Below the pieces are notes generated by a model that was given only the letters and a program-made list of their open reading frames with translations, had not been told where the DNA came from and did not search any database. Below are positions 53,581 to 64,000 of a stretch of DNA of 64,000 nt, one piece after another. The stretch's first letter is position 1, and every line of letters starts with the position of its first letter. The DNA is from Paenibacillus swuensis (lineage in GTDB: Bacteria > Bacillota > Bacilli > Paenibacillales > DY6). Position numbers and translations under genes: made by a program. Where the stretch lies: assembly GCF_001644605.1 (NCBI RefSeq), contig NZ_CP011388.1:1264501-1328500 (forward strand), given 5' to 3'.

Positions 53581-53674
53581 TCGAATATCTCAATGAAACA
53601 AAATCCTAGTGCATCCGAAATACGTAAACTAGGCTCTTGTACAATCCGATAATTCAACATTTCCATTAAATAAA

Positions 53675-53720
53675 AAATAGAGGAGGTCAGTTCATATAAT
53701 GAACTAACCATCCTCTATTT
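53675..53720 (-). terminator. Strong inverted repeat just outside the transposon tip; terminator on minus strand
   Basis: Outer arms AAATAGAGGA / TCCTCTATTT and inner arms AGTTCAT / ATGAACT with a 3-base loop form a long hairpin. On the minus strand it is followed by a T-rich tail (ATTTTTTATTTAAT). It would stop transcription leaving the transposon towards the host genes. It lies 15 bases left of the proposed element end, so it is host sequence there, possibly part of the insertion target. Confidence 0.65.
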
Positions 53721-53734
53721 ACGTTAATAGAAAC

Positions 53735-53890
53735 TGATTCATTACAATAAAGTATTGTTCCCGATATCCTTGATATCACTAACTTTTTTGACTTCCCTTT
53801 ATCACCAAAATTACAAAAAAGTGTTGTTCTAATTGAAATTAAATAGCCGGATTGCTGAATGTTCAATTACAATAAAGTTTTGTTTTCGAA
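53735..53890. repeat. Candidate Tn7-like transposon end with three spaced TnsB-site repeats
   Basis: Three related copies in the same orientation: TTACAATAAAGTATTGTTC (53742), TTACAAAAAAGTGTTGTTC (53811) and TTACAATAAAGTTTTGTTTT (53867), starts 69 and 56 bases apart. The first and last are similar over about 55 bases. The core ACAATAAAGT resembles the TnsB site of E. coli Tn7 as I recall it, whose left end also has three separated sites. Tn7 has 9 bases between tip and ACAAT; here 9 bases back is TGATTCATT at 53735, the proposed tip, with GAAAC as the possible 5-base target duplicate. The following AT-rich stretch to 54143 holds no gene. Confidence 0.65.
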
Positions 53891-54234: not shown

Positions 54235-56082
54235 TCAATCACTAACTGGGAAAAAACCATACCTGCCTGCCCGTTCTCCCTTAGTAAAAGCTATATGGTT
54301 ACAATTTGTTAGTCCAGTAGGTAATTCTTTATTTTCAATAATAATCACTTGTTTTTCACTACTACACTTAGATAGCGATTCAAACATCTTGTCCTGCATG
54401 GATACATCAATGATATCACCTTCATCAAAGTTTCCAGACTTTATTTCATTTTCTTTAAGAGTTGTAACAGGTGAATCTAAAATAATAACCTTACTAAACG
54501 GTGCATTCTTACTAATCAAATAGTCCATTAACGATACTGAAAATGCCGCATAAAAAAATGCCCTGTAACCCTTACCATTACTCTTTCTTGGTTGGCCGTT
54601 AATAACTATGTCCTGTTCTTTTTCATCAAACAATACCTCTATATTTTCTTTATCGCTATATCCCCAACTTACAAGTGTTTTTTCAATGGTTTTCATAAGT
54701 TCTTTGATTATTTCGCTAGAAATCTTTGTATCATAATTCAATTTCCCTTGCTTCTGAGCTAATTTTTGTTCATAACTCTCTAGATCATTGAGTTTATGTA
54801 CAATTCTCGCATTAATGCTTTCTATCTTATTAGTTATATCTAAATAATTCATGTAATCATTCATTAGGCTCTTCAAAGGGACGAGCTCTGAAGAATTGAT
54901 TCCTTCAAGCACACAAATTTCTTTATCTATAGTTTCCTGCAAACCACCCATTTTAATATTAATATCCATAAGCTGTTCGTTGGTGTCACTAATGGTCGAT
55001 TCAAGACCTTCAATATAAGAAGACAGTTTCCTTCTTTCCGTCATTGATGCTGCGAACAAATCAGAAATATCATCTTTTGGGATTTCATCAACCATTTCGT
55101 TATTACATACTGGACATGCGTTAACTGTTAACTGATCTAGAAAATCACCGCCAGCATGTATGAACTCCAGTCTTTCCAGATCATTAGTATATTGTTCTTT
55201 TAAAACCGAGAATCTCTCCAATAAAAGGGAAAAGCGGTTTTTTTGATTATTCAACTCATTTTGTTCTTTTCTACATTGAGTAATGATGGATTTTTTTGTA
55301 TTTATTCTATTTTCGACCTCAGCTAACTCTGCACCATAAATCTCCATTCTTATTGAAGCGTCACTCTTCTCCAAAAGTTCAGTCTGCTGAATAAGTGATA
55401 CTTTTAGCTCACTAATTTCCTGTTCAATATATTCTATTTTTGATTCCAAGCGCGCCTTTCTAATCTCTTTTTTTTCGATTTCCTCACACTTAGCATCGTC
55501 AACTTGTGTCAATAAGTATCTAAACAGTGACTTACAATAAGATTCGTCAGTCTTAACTTTATTAAATATGGGTGACTCTTCATCACTAATAATTTTGGTT
55601 TCGTTAATTAGTGATAAGTTTGCAATTCCCCTAAAGCCCAATCCTTTCTTCTTTCCTGATTGGTTTGTAAGCAATTGCTTATTCTCAGACAAACCAATCT
55701 GCTTCAATAAAAACCTTGAAATATTATTTTCATTCTTTGCATCATGATCCGCCAATAACTTATTGTCTTTTCTAATAACAAATCCAGAAATATCCGTGTC
55801 ACTGTAATAAATGCGATTCGCGTTACTAATGCTTCTATAGATTGTTTTTGGTCTGTCGCTAACGTTATCTCTTATCTCTAAAAATACATCGTCATAGGAT
55901 TCACTTAATTTAAATGTTTTAAGTTTAGATGCTCCAAAAATATAGTCAATACAGTTAAAAATATATGATTTTCCTGTATTTGACGGCCCATTAATGACAT
56001 TTAAACCTTTTTCAAATATAACAGATGCATCCTGAACACCAATACCGGTGACCCTTAACTCTTTAATGTAGAAACCTGCCAT
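54235..56082 (-). CDS. ABC-3C system Rad50/SMC-like ATPase
   Basis: 615 residues. Walker A GPSNTGKS (32-39), an extended coiled-coil region (about 200-450) broken by a zinc-hook-like CPVC at 323-326, a C-terminal signature-like SNGKGYRAFFYAAFSVSLMDYL (501-522) and Walker B KVIILDSPVTT (D536), then VIIIENKELP. This layout fits DUF3732-type ATPases of ABC three-component conflict systems. Its ATG overlaps the stop of the middle component by one base. The ATPase is expected to sense or load on DNA and to control the effector. Confidence 0.85.
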   Translation of the reverse strand: MAGFYIKELRVTGIGVQDASVIFEKGLNVINGPSNTGKSYIFNCIDYIFGASKLKTFKLSESYDDVFLEIRDNVSDRPKTIYRSISNANRIYYSDTDISGFVIRKDNKLLADHDAKNENNISRFLLKQIGLSENKQLLTNQSGKKKGLGFRGIANLSLINETKIISDEESPIFNKVKTDESYCKSLFRYLLTQVDDAKCEEIEKKEIRKARLESKIEYIEQEISELKVSLIQQTELLEKSDASIRMEIYGAELAEVENRINTKKSIITQCRKEQNELNNQKNRFSLLLERFSVLKEQYTNDLERLEFIHAGGDFLDQLTVNACPVCNNEMVDEIPKDDISDLFAASMTERRKLSSYIEGLESTISDTNEQLMDINIKMGGLQETIDKEICVLEGINSSELVPLKSLMNDYMNYLDITNKIESINARIVHKLNDLESYEQKLAQKQGKLNYDTKISSEIIKELMKTIEKTLVSWGYSDKENIEVLFDEKEQDIVINGQPRKSNGKGYRAFFYAAFSVSLMDYLISKNAPFSKVIILDSPVTTLKENEIKSGNFDEGDIIDVSMQDKMFESLSKCSSEKQVIIIENKELPTGLTNCNHIAFTKGERAGRYGFFPVSD

Positions 56083-56567
56083 TATAGAATCGCCTCTTCA
56101 TTATAGGGAAAAATGTTAGCGAACTCGTTCCCCCATGATTTATAGTGTTTATCTATATATTCCTTAATTTGTTCGTCACTAAATTCTTTATAATACTCAA
56201 TAATTTTCTCGACCGAGTTTGATAATTGAATTGCATAATTATTATTAATAGTAGTTAAGAACCATACTGTATTAATGTTTCCACTGTACAGAAACCCTTT
56301 ATCATTATACTCGATACCAATAAGACCTTTTGTAGCCATTAAAGATAACCCTTGCTGTAATACAGTGCGCCGTGTAAAGAGCTCAATAACACGCAATGGA
56401 TAATCCGGATGAAGACTCTTCAGGTCTAACTCGGAATCACTACTGTAGGTTGTAAGATAATCTAAATAAACCAACCTATCTAAACTATAACTACTATCAC
56501 GAGCAGCTCGTAATATAAATAGTGCCCTTAATCCAAGCTCTAATGGAGTGTTGTAAATTCTGCCCAT
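56082..56567 (-). CDS. ABC-3C middle component
   Basis: A 161-residue protein. NTPLELGLRALFILRAARDSSYSLDRLVYLDYLTTYSSD recalls the middle component of ABC-three-component systems, with a winged-helix-like body (RRTVLQQGLSLMATKGLIGIEYNDKGFLYSG). It lies 3 bases after the effector and overlaps the ATPase start, the usual order. Thought to link effector and ATPase. Confidence 0.75.
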   Translation of the reverse strand: MGRIYNTPLELGLRALFILRAARDSSYSLDRLVYLDYLTTYSSDSELDLKSLHPDYPLRVIELFTRRTVLQQGLSLMATKGLIGIEYNDKGFLYSGNINTVWFLTTINNNYAIQLSNSVEKIIEYYKEFSDEQIKEYIDKHYKSWGNEFANIFPYNEEAIL

Positions 56568-56570
56568 TCC

Positions 56571-57653
56571 TCAGACCACCCAATTCATTTTTTCATCATT
56601 TACAAGGTGATGACATAGCCCCTTTTTATCTTGATTAGTTACAAAGTTCAATTCTCTATCAACAGGACTCACCGAAAGATTAACTTTTGTCGACTCATGC
56701 ATTGTCTTTATGAGTCTATCGTATCCATCAACAAAACTTGTTTTTATAAAATCGCAAATTCCAGTATGCATTTCGCTTTTTAATAAGTTAAAATGATCCT
56801 CATCGTTGAAAATTTCTCTTATAGTTCTCCTTAGCGACTCTGCACTATAAAAGTTACGACGATTATCCCTAAAGTCCTCATAAAAGGTAGGTTCATCACT
56901 TAAGTTACCCATTGTGATATTTGACTTCTTATTATCTGAATAAGCATTTAATAGCTGATTAATATACAACAGCTCATTTGCTTCTGGATCTTCAGGAGGA
57001 CTAATTAATGAGCCTCGTTTTGGTTTCATATAGCCACCAAATCGAAAGTAAAAATAGTCAGTTTGTCTGTGCTCTTCAATAATCTTCTGCATTGAATGAG
57101 TTCCGATAATTTTAAAATCAAGATCATTGATATGTTCTAATAATTCAGGAGTTAGACCTATGTTCTGGCCCTCAATTAATTTCGTTTTGCATTTATTATC
57201 CCATTCTTTGAGCAAACTCTTTTTCATCAAATCTTTATTCCCCATTAACTTCACCAATGATGGGCCTAAATCATGGACTGCAACAATATAGTAATTTTTA
57301 GGCACAGGAATGTCTTTATTGTAAGTGTAGTAACATAATTTACCTAGTTCAATCCAAAACATACTTGGCATAAGTTTCTTTCCATATCTTTTACACTGGT
57401 AATAGTCAATAGTTCCATCATCATACTCCCCAATAACATCTCTCCCATTATCTCCGGAGCCACCGATTCTATAAACATCTCTATACTTTGGTCTAGCACA
57501 TGATATTGCCCATTCATTAATGAAATCTTCATAGCTTTCCGGGGAAAAAGATTCAACTCTCTGTAGTGGAGGGATGTTGAACTCCTTTACGGAGGGATTA
57601 AATTCTGGAGACTTTTTGCTAATTCTCTCAATTGGTAAACTCGAAGTGATCAT
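56571..57653 (-). CDS. ABC-3C effector with N-terminal restriction-endonuclease-like domain
   Basis: 360 residues. Residues about 38-100 hold a PD-(D/E)xK-type nuclease pattern: YEDFINEWA (Glu), GSGDNGRDVIG (D72) and YYQCKRYGKK (Q86-x-K88). The C-terminal third (RRTIREIFNDEDHFNLLKSEMHTGICDFIKTSFVDGYDRLIKTM) fits the C-terminal domain shared by ABC-3C effectors. First gene of the operon. Expected to cut DNA when licensed by the ATPase and middle component; this is family knowledge plus inference. Confidence 0.8.
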   Translation of the reverse strand: MITSSLPIERISKKSPEFNPSVKEFNIPPLQRVESFSPESYEDFINEWAISCARPKYRDVYRIGGSGDNGRDVIGEYDDGTIDYYQCKRYGKKLMPSMFWIELGKLCYYTYNKDIPVPKNYYIVAVHDLGPSLVKLMGNKDLMKKSLLKEWDNKCKTKLIEGQNIGLTPELLEHINDLDFKIIGTHSMQKIIEEHRQTDYFYFRFGGYMKPKRGSLISPPEDPEANELLYINQLLNAYSDNKKSNITMGNLSDEPTFYEDFRDNRRNFYSAESLRRTIREIFNDEDHFNLLKSEMHTGICDFIKTSFVDGYDRLIKTMHESTKVNLSVSPVDRELNFVTNQDKKGLCHHLVNDEKMNWVV

Positions 57654-61203: not shown

Positions 61204-62864
61204 TATAGCCCCAATCTACTTCTTACATCCTGAACATATCCAGCTTGCTTAATCAGCAGATAAAATGAAGTGTTTTTTGATTTTGCCTTACGGTCAATTA
61301 CAGTCATCAACCCGGTGGTTTTTTTGTTACTGGAGTTGTTAGACTTCTTTCCTTTAGATTTCTCAGGATTAGACCGCTTTGAAGAGATGCTGGCTTGATC
61401 ATTATCGTATTTGTTCATTGCTTTTGTGTACGCTGCCTTTTTCCATACGGATATATCGTCTGCACGTGTTTCTAAGGCAACCTCTTTTGCCTGATCCCCT
61501 GTGTACCCCATGTCCATTATCCAATATACGACTTCGGTAAAGGATTGCTCGTCCTTCTGCTCAATAAGTGCCTCATCTAATTCAATACCGTACTCTTTTG
61601 AGAATAACTCCCTATCTTCGTTATTGATCATTTTCTCAGGCTCGAAGCTCATGAAAATATCCAAGTACTTTTGCATCTCCGCTTTCTTTCCGCTTCGTAG
61701 TGCATCAAGAGCCGGCTGCAGAAGCCTAAACTGGTCCTGTGCAACCGAATGAATAATTTCCTCTGTTAGCCGCTCATCATCTGATCCAATTGCTCTTTTC
61801 TGCGCTTCTTTGAATACCTTAATGACCAAATCCGGAATACCCTGCGACTCATAATATAGTGCTTTTTCTATGGCAGTCGTGCATTCTACATATTTTTTAG
61901 TCCATTGATATTTCCAGATATACTTGATAAGTGTACGCCAATCGTTACTCTCTTGCTGAAGACGGTCCCAATCCACGCTTCCTTGATCCGTAATTCTCTT
62001 AATATTCCGGAACTCTTTGGTAAACAAATGACGAGCCTTTGGCGTCCCGATCAGGACAATCGGGACGCCAATTGTATTGGTGAGTGTATTAAAGAAATTA
62101 AGCATCAATGCAGCCCCGCCGGATCTAACCTCGTAAAGGTATTGAATTTCGTCGATTACAAGAACACCCAAGTGATGTTTAAGTGCGAGTGAGGACATGA
62201 TCCGGATCAACTCATCCGTTTTATAACCCATAAATGTATTGTATTCCACTTCTCCAACCAGCTCGGAGATCTCATGTATAAAGTTCAAACAAAGCTGCTT
62301 TATAGTTCCGGATACCGGACAATCAATTTTAAGCCATACTAGTTGTTTTACCTTATATTCAGTGTGCACGATCACTTGAGGGTAAAGGTTCAGTATCCTC
62401 GATATACCTGTAGACTTTCCAGCCCCGGATATACCGATGATACCTAGTCCCGAAGCGGTTGGTAACGGAATGTTATACTTCTCTTTCTCAAGATCAGCAA
62501 TATCAGGACGCTCGAATCTCATCATGCAATTACGCACTCGTCTCGTGTGATCGCCGTTAGCAATATTTCTGGAGAGGTACCCTTTCCTAATTAAGATTGA
62601 CAACTTCTCTTCGACCTCTAGATGTTTATTTAACGGGATGATAAAGGAAGATAGTCGCTCTACACAGTGCTTCCGTTTACCGGGGGATAGTTCACGTTCT
62701 CCGGAATCAAATTTTTTAACCAGCTTAATTTTCTTGGCTGTCTCTTGTAAGTCCAGTATCTCAGGCAAAGCTTCGATCAAGGGGTGGTCATCATACTCCT
62801 GAATCCCGGTTTTTTTGTAAGCAGCGAACTCAATTCTGCCCCGGAGAGGTTTCCGAACATTCAT
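61203..62864 (-). CDS. tnsC: TnsC-type AAA+ ATPase
   Basis: 553 residues. Walker A GISGAGKST (144-152), Walker B VLVIDEIQ (234-241) and a downstream sensor segment IVLIGTPKARHLFTKEFRNIKRI. The C-terminus is Lys-rich (SSKRSNPEKSKGKKSNN). Start codon overlaps the tnsB stop (ATGA). TnsC recruits the transposase to targets chosen by TniQ/TnsD and polymerises on DNA. Longer than TniB of Tn5053, closer to Tn7 TnsC. Confidence 0.93.
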   Translation of the reverse strand: MNVRKPLRGRIEFAAYKKTGIQEYDDHPLIEALPEILDLQETAKKIKLVKKFDSGERELSPGKRKHCVERLSSFIIPLNKHLEVEEKLSILIRKGYLSRNIANGDHTRRVRNCMMRFERPDIADLEKEKYNIPLPTASGLGIIGISGAGKSTGISRILNLYPQVIVHTEYKVKQLVWLKIDCPVSGTIKQLCLNFIHEISELVGEVEYNTFMGYKTDELIRIMSSLALKHHLGVLVIDEIQYLYEVRSGGAALMLNFFNTLTNTIGVPIVLIGTPKARHLFTKEFRNIKRITDQGSVDWDRLQQESNDWRTLIKYIWKYQWTKKYVECTTAIEKALYYESQGIPDLVIKVFKEAQKRAIGSDDERLTEEIIHSVAQDQFRLLQPALDALRSGKKAEMQKYLDIFMSFEPEKMINNEDRELFSKEYGIELDEALIEQKDEQSFTEVVYWIMDMGYTGDQAKEVALETRADDISVWKKAAYTKAMNKYDNDQASISSKRSNPEKSKGKKSNNSSNKKTTGLMTVIDRKAKSKNTSFYLLIKQAGYVQDVRSRLGL

Positions 62865-64000
62865 TCATCATCATCCTCTTCCATTGCTCTGAGTATTGAA
62901 TCTGTATGGTCAACTCGCGGCACATACTTATCTGACTTTTTGTCAGCCAGATACACAACCATATCACTTTTGTTTAGCTCTGACGTTTCATCCTTCTCGA
63001 GTCTCCACGCTCTCTCCTCGCGTTCTTCCTGTTTACTAATTGCTCGGTGTTCACGGACATCCTCTGGCCGGGTCCGCCTTGACTTATCTTGAGTTTCAGC
63101 CGCCGTTTTCTTCTTCGCTTGTTCAATTGTTTTATTGTTTTTATTAATCAATCTCAGTTTTTCTTCCGTGTTCTTCGACCTTCCCTTTCTCGCCTGTCGA
63201 GCTTCATATGCAACGACATCAAGATCCTCTTCCCATCGAAAATCCCTGTTACTAGGGATATACTTACTATGCTGCTCCTCAAGCTTAAAGCATTCTTCAA
63301 ATTGACCATCAGAATGTCTTAAGAAAAGATGCGATGTATCCCGAGGGTCAAAACTATACTCCACATTAAACTTTTCACCATTACGGGCGCGAAAACGCCA
63401 ACTCTCTTCTTCGGCCGTAACACACGTATAGAGATCTTTGTTGAACCTGATCCCCCCGGCTGTAAATCGCGCTCTCCTGGAGGGAAGCAAATTCATGCGG
63501 AGTTGGTCCTTACTTACATAACTCAATGTGCCGAGACTATTCTTCCTGCCCCAGTGCCATAAATCCACAGGTGTTGGGGTTACGTCGTCTTCAATCATGG
63601 CATCATTTCTACGATAACTTTGCATATAGTGCTTGTTATGGTATCTGACACACCCGATTAATATGGTCTCGAACTCATGAATATCTAGTGCACGTTTGTC
63701 CCTTGTATCCAAATCGCCACGCTCCTTCATTCGTTCTAGAATGCCGCCTGGCGTCCATTTGACGTACAAATCATCACTCAGATCGAACGCCTTCTCGACA
63801 AAAGGTTTCCAATCTGCCCGAAAAGGTGGGAGATGCTCAACTTTTACGTTGAGTGTCTTAATAAGATGTGCGGGCTTATTGCCGACATACTCACCGCGGT
63901 CAGTCGTTAATTGCTCTGGTAAACCGAAGGAGGGCCATTCTTCTTTCGTAATATCGATGCCAAAACGTTTGCAATACTCAACCTTATCTGAGGCGGCATT
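62861..64000 (-). CDS. tnsB: TnsB-type DDE transposase, N-terminal part cut by window edge
   Basis: The frame is open from 62861 to the last base of the window, about 380 visible residues. Visible: LTTDRGEYVG (second catalytic Asp of the DDE core), FVEKAFDLSDD (candidate catalytic Glu), then a Mu-transposase-like beta-barrel (DDVTPTPVDLWHWGRKNSLG and NLLPSRRARFTAGGIRFNKDLYTC). A long charged C-terminal tail ends at the tnsC overlap. The first catalytic Asp and the site-binding domains lie outside the window. Confidence 0.93.
   Translation of the reverse strand, partial: NAASDKVEYCKRFGIDITKEEWPSFGLPEQLTTDRGEYVGNKPAHLIKTLNVKVEHLPPFRADWKPFVEKAFDLSDDLYVKWTPGGILERMKERGDLDTRDKRALDIHEFETILIGCVRYHNKHYMQSYRRNDAMIEDDVTPTPVDLWHWGRKNSLGTLSYVSKDQLRMNLLPSRRARFTAGGIRFNKDLYTCVTAEEESWRFRARNGEKFNVEYSFDPRDTSHLFLRHSDGQFEECFKLEEQHSKYIPSNRDFRWEEDLDVVAYEARQARKGRSKNTEEKLRLINKNNKTIEQAKKKTAAETQDKSRRTRPEDVREHRAISKQEEREERAWRLEKDETSELNKSDMVVYLADKKSDKYVPRVDHTDSILRAMEEDDDE

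Follow-up and report, generated by a model that had tools for sequence, protein, structure and literature searches.

Three short repeats of the form TTACAA(T/A)AAAGTnTTGTT start at positions 53742, 53811 and 53867 (TTACAATAAAGTATTGTTC, TTACAAAAAAGTGTTGTTC and TTACAATAAAGTTTTGTTT, respectively) in the 64,000-nucleotide stretch of Paenibacillus swuensis DNA analysed here (the window; C1:1264501-1328500 of a 5.01 Mb genome) and raise the question of whether they mark the end of a mobile element and, if so, at which base that element begins. The original prediction took them for the left end of a Tn7-like element, and all three repeats are present as it described them. We conclude with very high confidence that a Tn7-like transposon of 26.4 kb resides at attTn7, 24 bp past the glmS stop codon, and that the repeats are the TnsB binding sites of its left end.

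Using an 18-mer of the repeat and allowing two mismatches, a search of the entire 5.01 Mb genome revealed 13 matching places, and allowing one mismatch reduced these to six. Five of the six fall in two clusters, three of them at the left end and two, on the other strand, at C1:1344598-1344666, where a third copy carries two mismatches to the 18-mer. The left-end repeats are not a chance occurrence: 4 Mb of one-strand sequence simulated with local dinucleotide frequencies yielded a single match when up to one mismatch was allowed, and even a tolerance of three mismatches gave no group of three inside 150 bp. The second cluster lies outside the window, 26.4 kb from the left end, and its three copies face inward (reading inward, TGATTCATTACAATAAAGTGTTGTTCTAAACAATAAAGTTTTGTTC...TTACAATTAAGTTTTGTTC). 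This inverted copy of the motif at the distal end supports the reading of the repeats as a transposon end. The original prediction also expected an overlapping array there, and in that respect it did not hold, as the right end has a pair of sites spaced 20 bp apart and a third site 31 bp further inward rather than the four overlapping sites of Tn7. Both tips of the element read TGATTCATTACAATAAAGTnTTGTTC, and the left tip and the right tip (C1:1344673) are identical at 25 of 26 bases. Between them (C1:1318235-1344673) a scan of the element for sites found no further arrays. The features are collected in Table 1.

Table 1. Coordinates of the element, its genes and its flanks. Positions are those of the window unless prefixed C1 (genome coordinates).
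Feature	Position	Strand	Remarks
Hairpin terminator, strong, reading in the glmS direction	53673..53720	-	-27.8 kcal/mol, z = -8.3
5-bp flank GAAAC outside left tip	53730..53734	+	right flank GATAT
Left tip, 26-bp terminal inverted repeat TGATTCATTACAATAAAGTATTGTTC	53735..53760	+	first TnsB-type site at +10
TnsB-type site L1	53742..53760	+	core at +10 from tip
TnsB-type site L2	53811..53829	+	+79 from tip
TnsB-type site L3	53867..53885	+	+135 from tip
LmuB, SMC-like ATPase, Lamassu-type/ABC-3C	54235..56082	-	PADLOC LmuB 1.3e-140
LmuC, ABC-3C middle component MC2	56082..56567	-	Pfam MC2 5.6e-41; PADLOC LmuC 8.4e-42
LmuA, ABC-3C CTD6 protein, effector	56571..57653	-	Pfam CTD6 1.2e-37; PADLOC LmuA 1.6e-94
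D2, second TnsD-like selector, 554 aa	58086..59750	-	Pfam TnsD 9.2e-58, TniQ 2e-18
D1, first TnsD-like selector, 463 aa	59812..61203	-	counterpart of relatives' ~620-aa D1
TnsC, AAA+ regulator, 553 aa	61203..62864	-	Tn7 TnsC 5.8e-82
TnsB transposase, C-terminal part	62861..64000	-	Tn7 TnsB 1.8e-89; gene continues to C1:1329565 outside window
tnsA (277 aa)	C1:1329555-1330388		outside window; Tn7 TnsA 9.4e-39
Right end	C1:1344590-1344673		outside window

From right to left the element carries a small HTH gene, cargo, a gene for a 145-aa protein, tnsA, tnsB, tnsC, D1, D2, LmuA, LmuC and LmuB, and the tns genes are transcribed towards the left tip. TnsA, TnsB and TnsC each match their counterpart among the solved Tn7 proteins, and the catalytic motifs of TnsB (D/D/E; full product 734 aa) and TnsA (E/D/K) are present. 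With a DDE TnsB and a TnsA endonuclease, TnsC together with a TniQ/TnsD selector, and inverted arrays of ~20 bp sites at both ends, the element shows these hallmarks of a Tn7-like transposon. It is not a canonical Tn7, which has four right-end sites and tnsE: there are three right-end sites here, and a comparison of the element ORFs with the tnsE region of the Tn7 record gave no match. Nor does it qualify as a CRISPR-associated transposon, since no Cas family was found among the element ORFs scanned, a set that took in only part of the small ORFs.

The right tip stands 24 bp past the glmS stop codon, glmS is transcribed towards it, and the site-dense right end faces glmS, leaving the left tip as the glmS-distal end. 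The insertion is thus at the classic attTn7 position, and the element falls in the glmS-targeting subgroup, whose members insert ~20-25 bp after the stop with the site-dense end towards the gene. From homology to Tn7 we infer TnsB binding at the three repeats, cleavage and any current mobility. TnsB would bind three sites at each end and pair the ends and, at the TG tips, would cut the 3' strands while TnsA would cut the 5' strands. A TnsD-type selector on the end of glmS would direct insertion, via TnsC, to just behind the gene. The end with the closely spaced sites would then face glmS, and 5 bp would be duplicated on insertion.

How closely the ends follow those of Tn7 was judged against an E. 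coli record (NZ_CP033762.1) measured in the same way. In that record the left sites stand at +10/+74/+130 and the right sites at +10/+30/+51/+71, in agreement with the published layout of three left and four right sites (PMC8649781), and the insertion lies 25 bp after the glmS stop and is flanked by the duplication CCCGC. The two elements share TG tips followed by the first site at a distance of 9 bases, three spaced left-end sites, the order tnsA-tnsB-tnsC-tnsD and a glmS target ~25 bp past the stop codon; in addition, the core of the Tn7 right-end site is identical to the P. swuensis core ACAATAAAGT. The 9-base distance from the TG at 53735 to ACAAT at 53744, for which the original prediction had claimed equality with Tn7, is indeed found at both ends of the Tn7 record. 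In contrast, the P. swuensis element has three right-end sites instead of four, its site tail reads TTGTTC instead of TTAAACT, it has two tnsD-like genes and no tnsE was found, its right end is separated from tnsA by 14 kb of cargo, with further cargo at the left end, and its TnsB is only 31% identical to that of Tn7. Tandem tniQ/tnsD selectors are a feature shared with the dual tniQ/tnsD Tn7-like transposons, an arrangement common enough to be documented at 1,048 loci (Faure et al., 2023, PMC10293859), and defence genes as cargo are shared with the Tn7-like transposons of Benler et al. (2021, PMC8649781); as here, inverted TnsB-site arrays set the boundary of such elements. In the literature searched we found no description of a Paenibacillales subgroup with the P. 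swuensis site sequence.

Scanning 399 genomes from the order brought up two related elements (G160 and G086, TnsB identity 62-64%), and a scan of named genomes brought up a third (Paenibacillus sediminis, L049/G399, 63%); the two ends of the G160 element lie on different contigs. All three share with the P. swuensis element the same tip, the position behind glmS and the site offsets at both ends: +10, +79/80 and +135/136 on the left (+10/+79/+135 in P. swuensis) and +10, +30 and +61 on the right (identical in P. swuensis). The 145-aa gene and tnsA-tnsB-tnsC-tnsD recur in related elements and nearly all of the cargo does not; the small HTH gene at the right end is common to P. swuensis, P. sediminis and G086, with a weaker match in G014. 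Unlike the P. swuensis element, the three relatives carry other cargo, a first TnsD of 620 aa (463 aa in P. swuensis) and a perfect 5-bp duplication directly outside the TG, namely CACAA for P. sediminis, TTCAT for G086 and CTGGA for G160. The second TnsD measures 790-810 aa in two relatives as against 554 aa in P. swuensis and was not found in G086.

These duplications bear directly on the boundary, which the original prediction placed at the TG at 53735. Since the homologous TG abuts a perfect 5-bp duplication in all three related elements, the comparison of sequences fixes the boundary there to the base. The P. swuensis copy itself lacks a 5-bp target duplication: its flanks, GAAAC on the left and GATAT on the right (+ strand), match at three of five positions, a level that by our own estimate about one pair in ten would reach by chance. 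Target duplications may disappear once an element has inserted, and we therefore tentatively read the mismatch as a change in the P. swuensis copy alone. Outside the left tip, at a distance of 14-60 bp, stands a strong terminator reading in the glmS direction, which is probably the displaced glmS terminator, and by virtue of it the left flank does look like the original sequence downstream of glmS. A search of 60 relatives, all of the same order and none of the same genus or family, produced no homologous left-flank DNA, and the protein encoded in the left flank (1272 aa) found only distant, partial matches in two of the 60.

The flank mismatch also invites a different history for this copy, namely that the two ends derive from separate events, the left end and its flank from an earlier or different insertion at attTn7 and the right end from a later insertion or from recombination. 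Besides the contrast between the differing flanks and the perfect duplications of three relatives, such a history could draw on reuse of the site. The left flank of G160 and the glmS region of G074 hold what remains of the right end of another Tn7-like family with GTGGAACC-type sites (L139 near 2700-2890 in G074; G160:C26:41229 onwards), and evidently the glmS attTn7 site has been used repeatedly by insertions. In G074 (L139), to which the G160 flank search pointed, glmS has this remnant behind it instead of a clean empty site; for the G086 flank, the search yielded no empty site adjoining glmS. Matching right ends were also seen behind glmS in two further genomes, G014 and G036: at a cut-off of 1e-100 the former yielded no tnsB match, and in the latter no close tnsB was found in the genome and no tnsB relative within 40 kb. 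The G036 right end is a relic or a non-autonomous copy; the stretch concerned (L100) starts after glmS with the same-family right-end remnant and a shortened HTH gene. Against separate origins, the tips of the P. swuensis element agree at all but one base and no additional arrays lie between them, and the mismatch would be explained equally well if one flank had undergone two point mutations or if a small deletion had occurred beyond the left tip. On balance we consider separate events possible yet less probable than a single insertion.

A boundary further to the left, at TGTACAATCC near 53639, where a TG is likewise followed by ACAAT, was rejected and is highly improbable: no site array is present there, the related elements, with their exact duplications, end at the TG that precedes the first site core by 9 bases, and the interval 53640-53734 holds the glmS-direction terminator, as host sequence would. 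The repeats are direct, short and spaced and lie in AT-rich intergenic sequence, as operators or promoter elements of an adjacent gene might; this reading is just as improbable, given the inverted copies at the other end, the Tn7-like spacing and the transposase genes between, and the comparative data exclude regulation as their main role.

Of the two selectors of the element, D1 is encoded immediately behind tnsC. It aligns with the sole TnsD of G086 and, in G160 and P. sediminis, with the first of the two TnsD proteins (~620 aa each), and its C-terminal part is similar to that of Tn7 TnsD (31% over 109 residues). It is without ~160 residues found in the middle of the relatives' proteins, including a CxxCGF zinc ribbon and their one WL-xxx-D-xx-W module, which Tn7 TnsD has as well. 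Two of these modules are present in D2, against six in both relatives that have a D2. Because of its gene position, and because G086 has one selector and sits at glmS, D1 is the more likely candidate for the glmS reader. The shortened D1 may be impaired, however, and the element may now be unable to home to glmS. We think it unlikely, though conceivable, that the two selectors are of different design and serve different targets, with the ~60-residue modules of D2, varying in number, reading a different, longer target and targeting having passed to D2 after D1 lost its module and zinc ribbon. As a separate observation, P. sediminis has a second glmS-like gene (L114, G399:C4:168666-170366) ~57 kb away, in which the match extends only as far as residue 566 out of 609, so that it seems to lack the C-terminal end on which TnsD would act.

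Adjoining the left end, LmuA, LmuB and LmuC together (54235-57653) form a complete Lamassu/ABC-3C gene set, a predicted phage-defence system. Cargo outside the window includes a second DnaN sliding-clamp gene that is apparently split into two frames (L003:3692-4516 and L003:4530-4823). A SUKH-family (SMI1/KNR4) cargo protein (L002:15091-15687) also matches the PADLOC candidate model PDC-M40A.

The element belongs to a well-known type and leaves the general picture of Tn7 unchanged. Its analysis puts a predicted Lamassu defence system among mobile cargo and provides, for a Gram-positive Tn7-like subgroup, the exact boundary, the site consensus (TTACAATAAAGTnTTGTTC) and a conserved end layout of three plus three sites, with which other copies and relics can be found by sequence alone.
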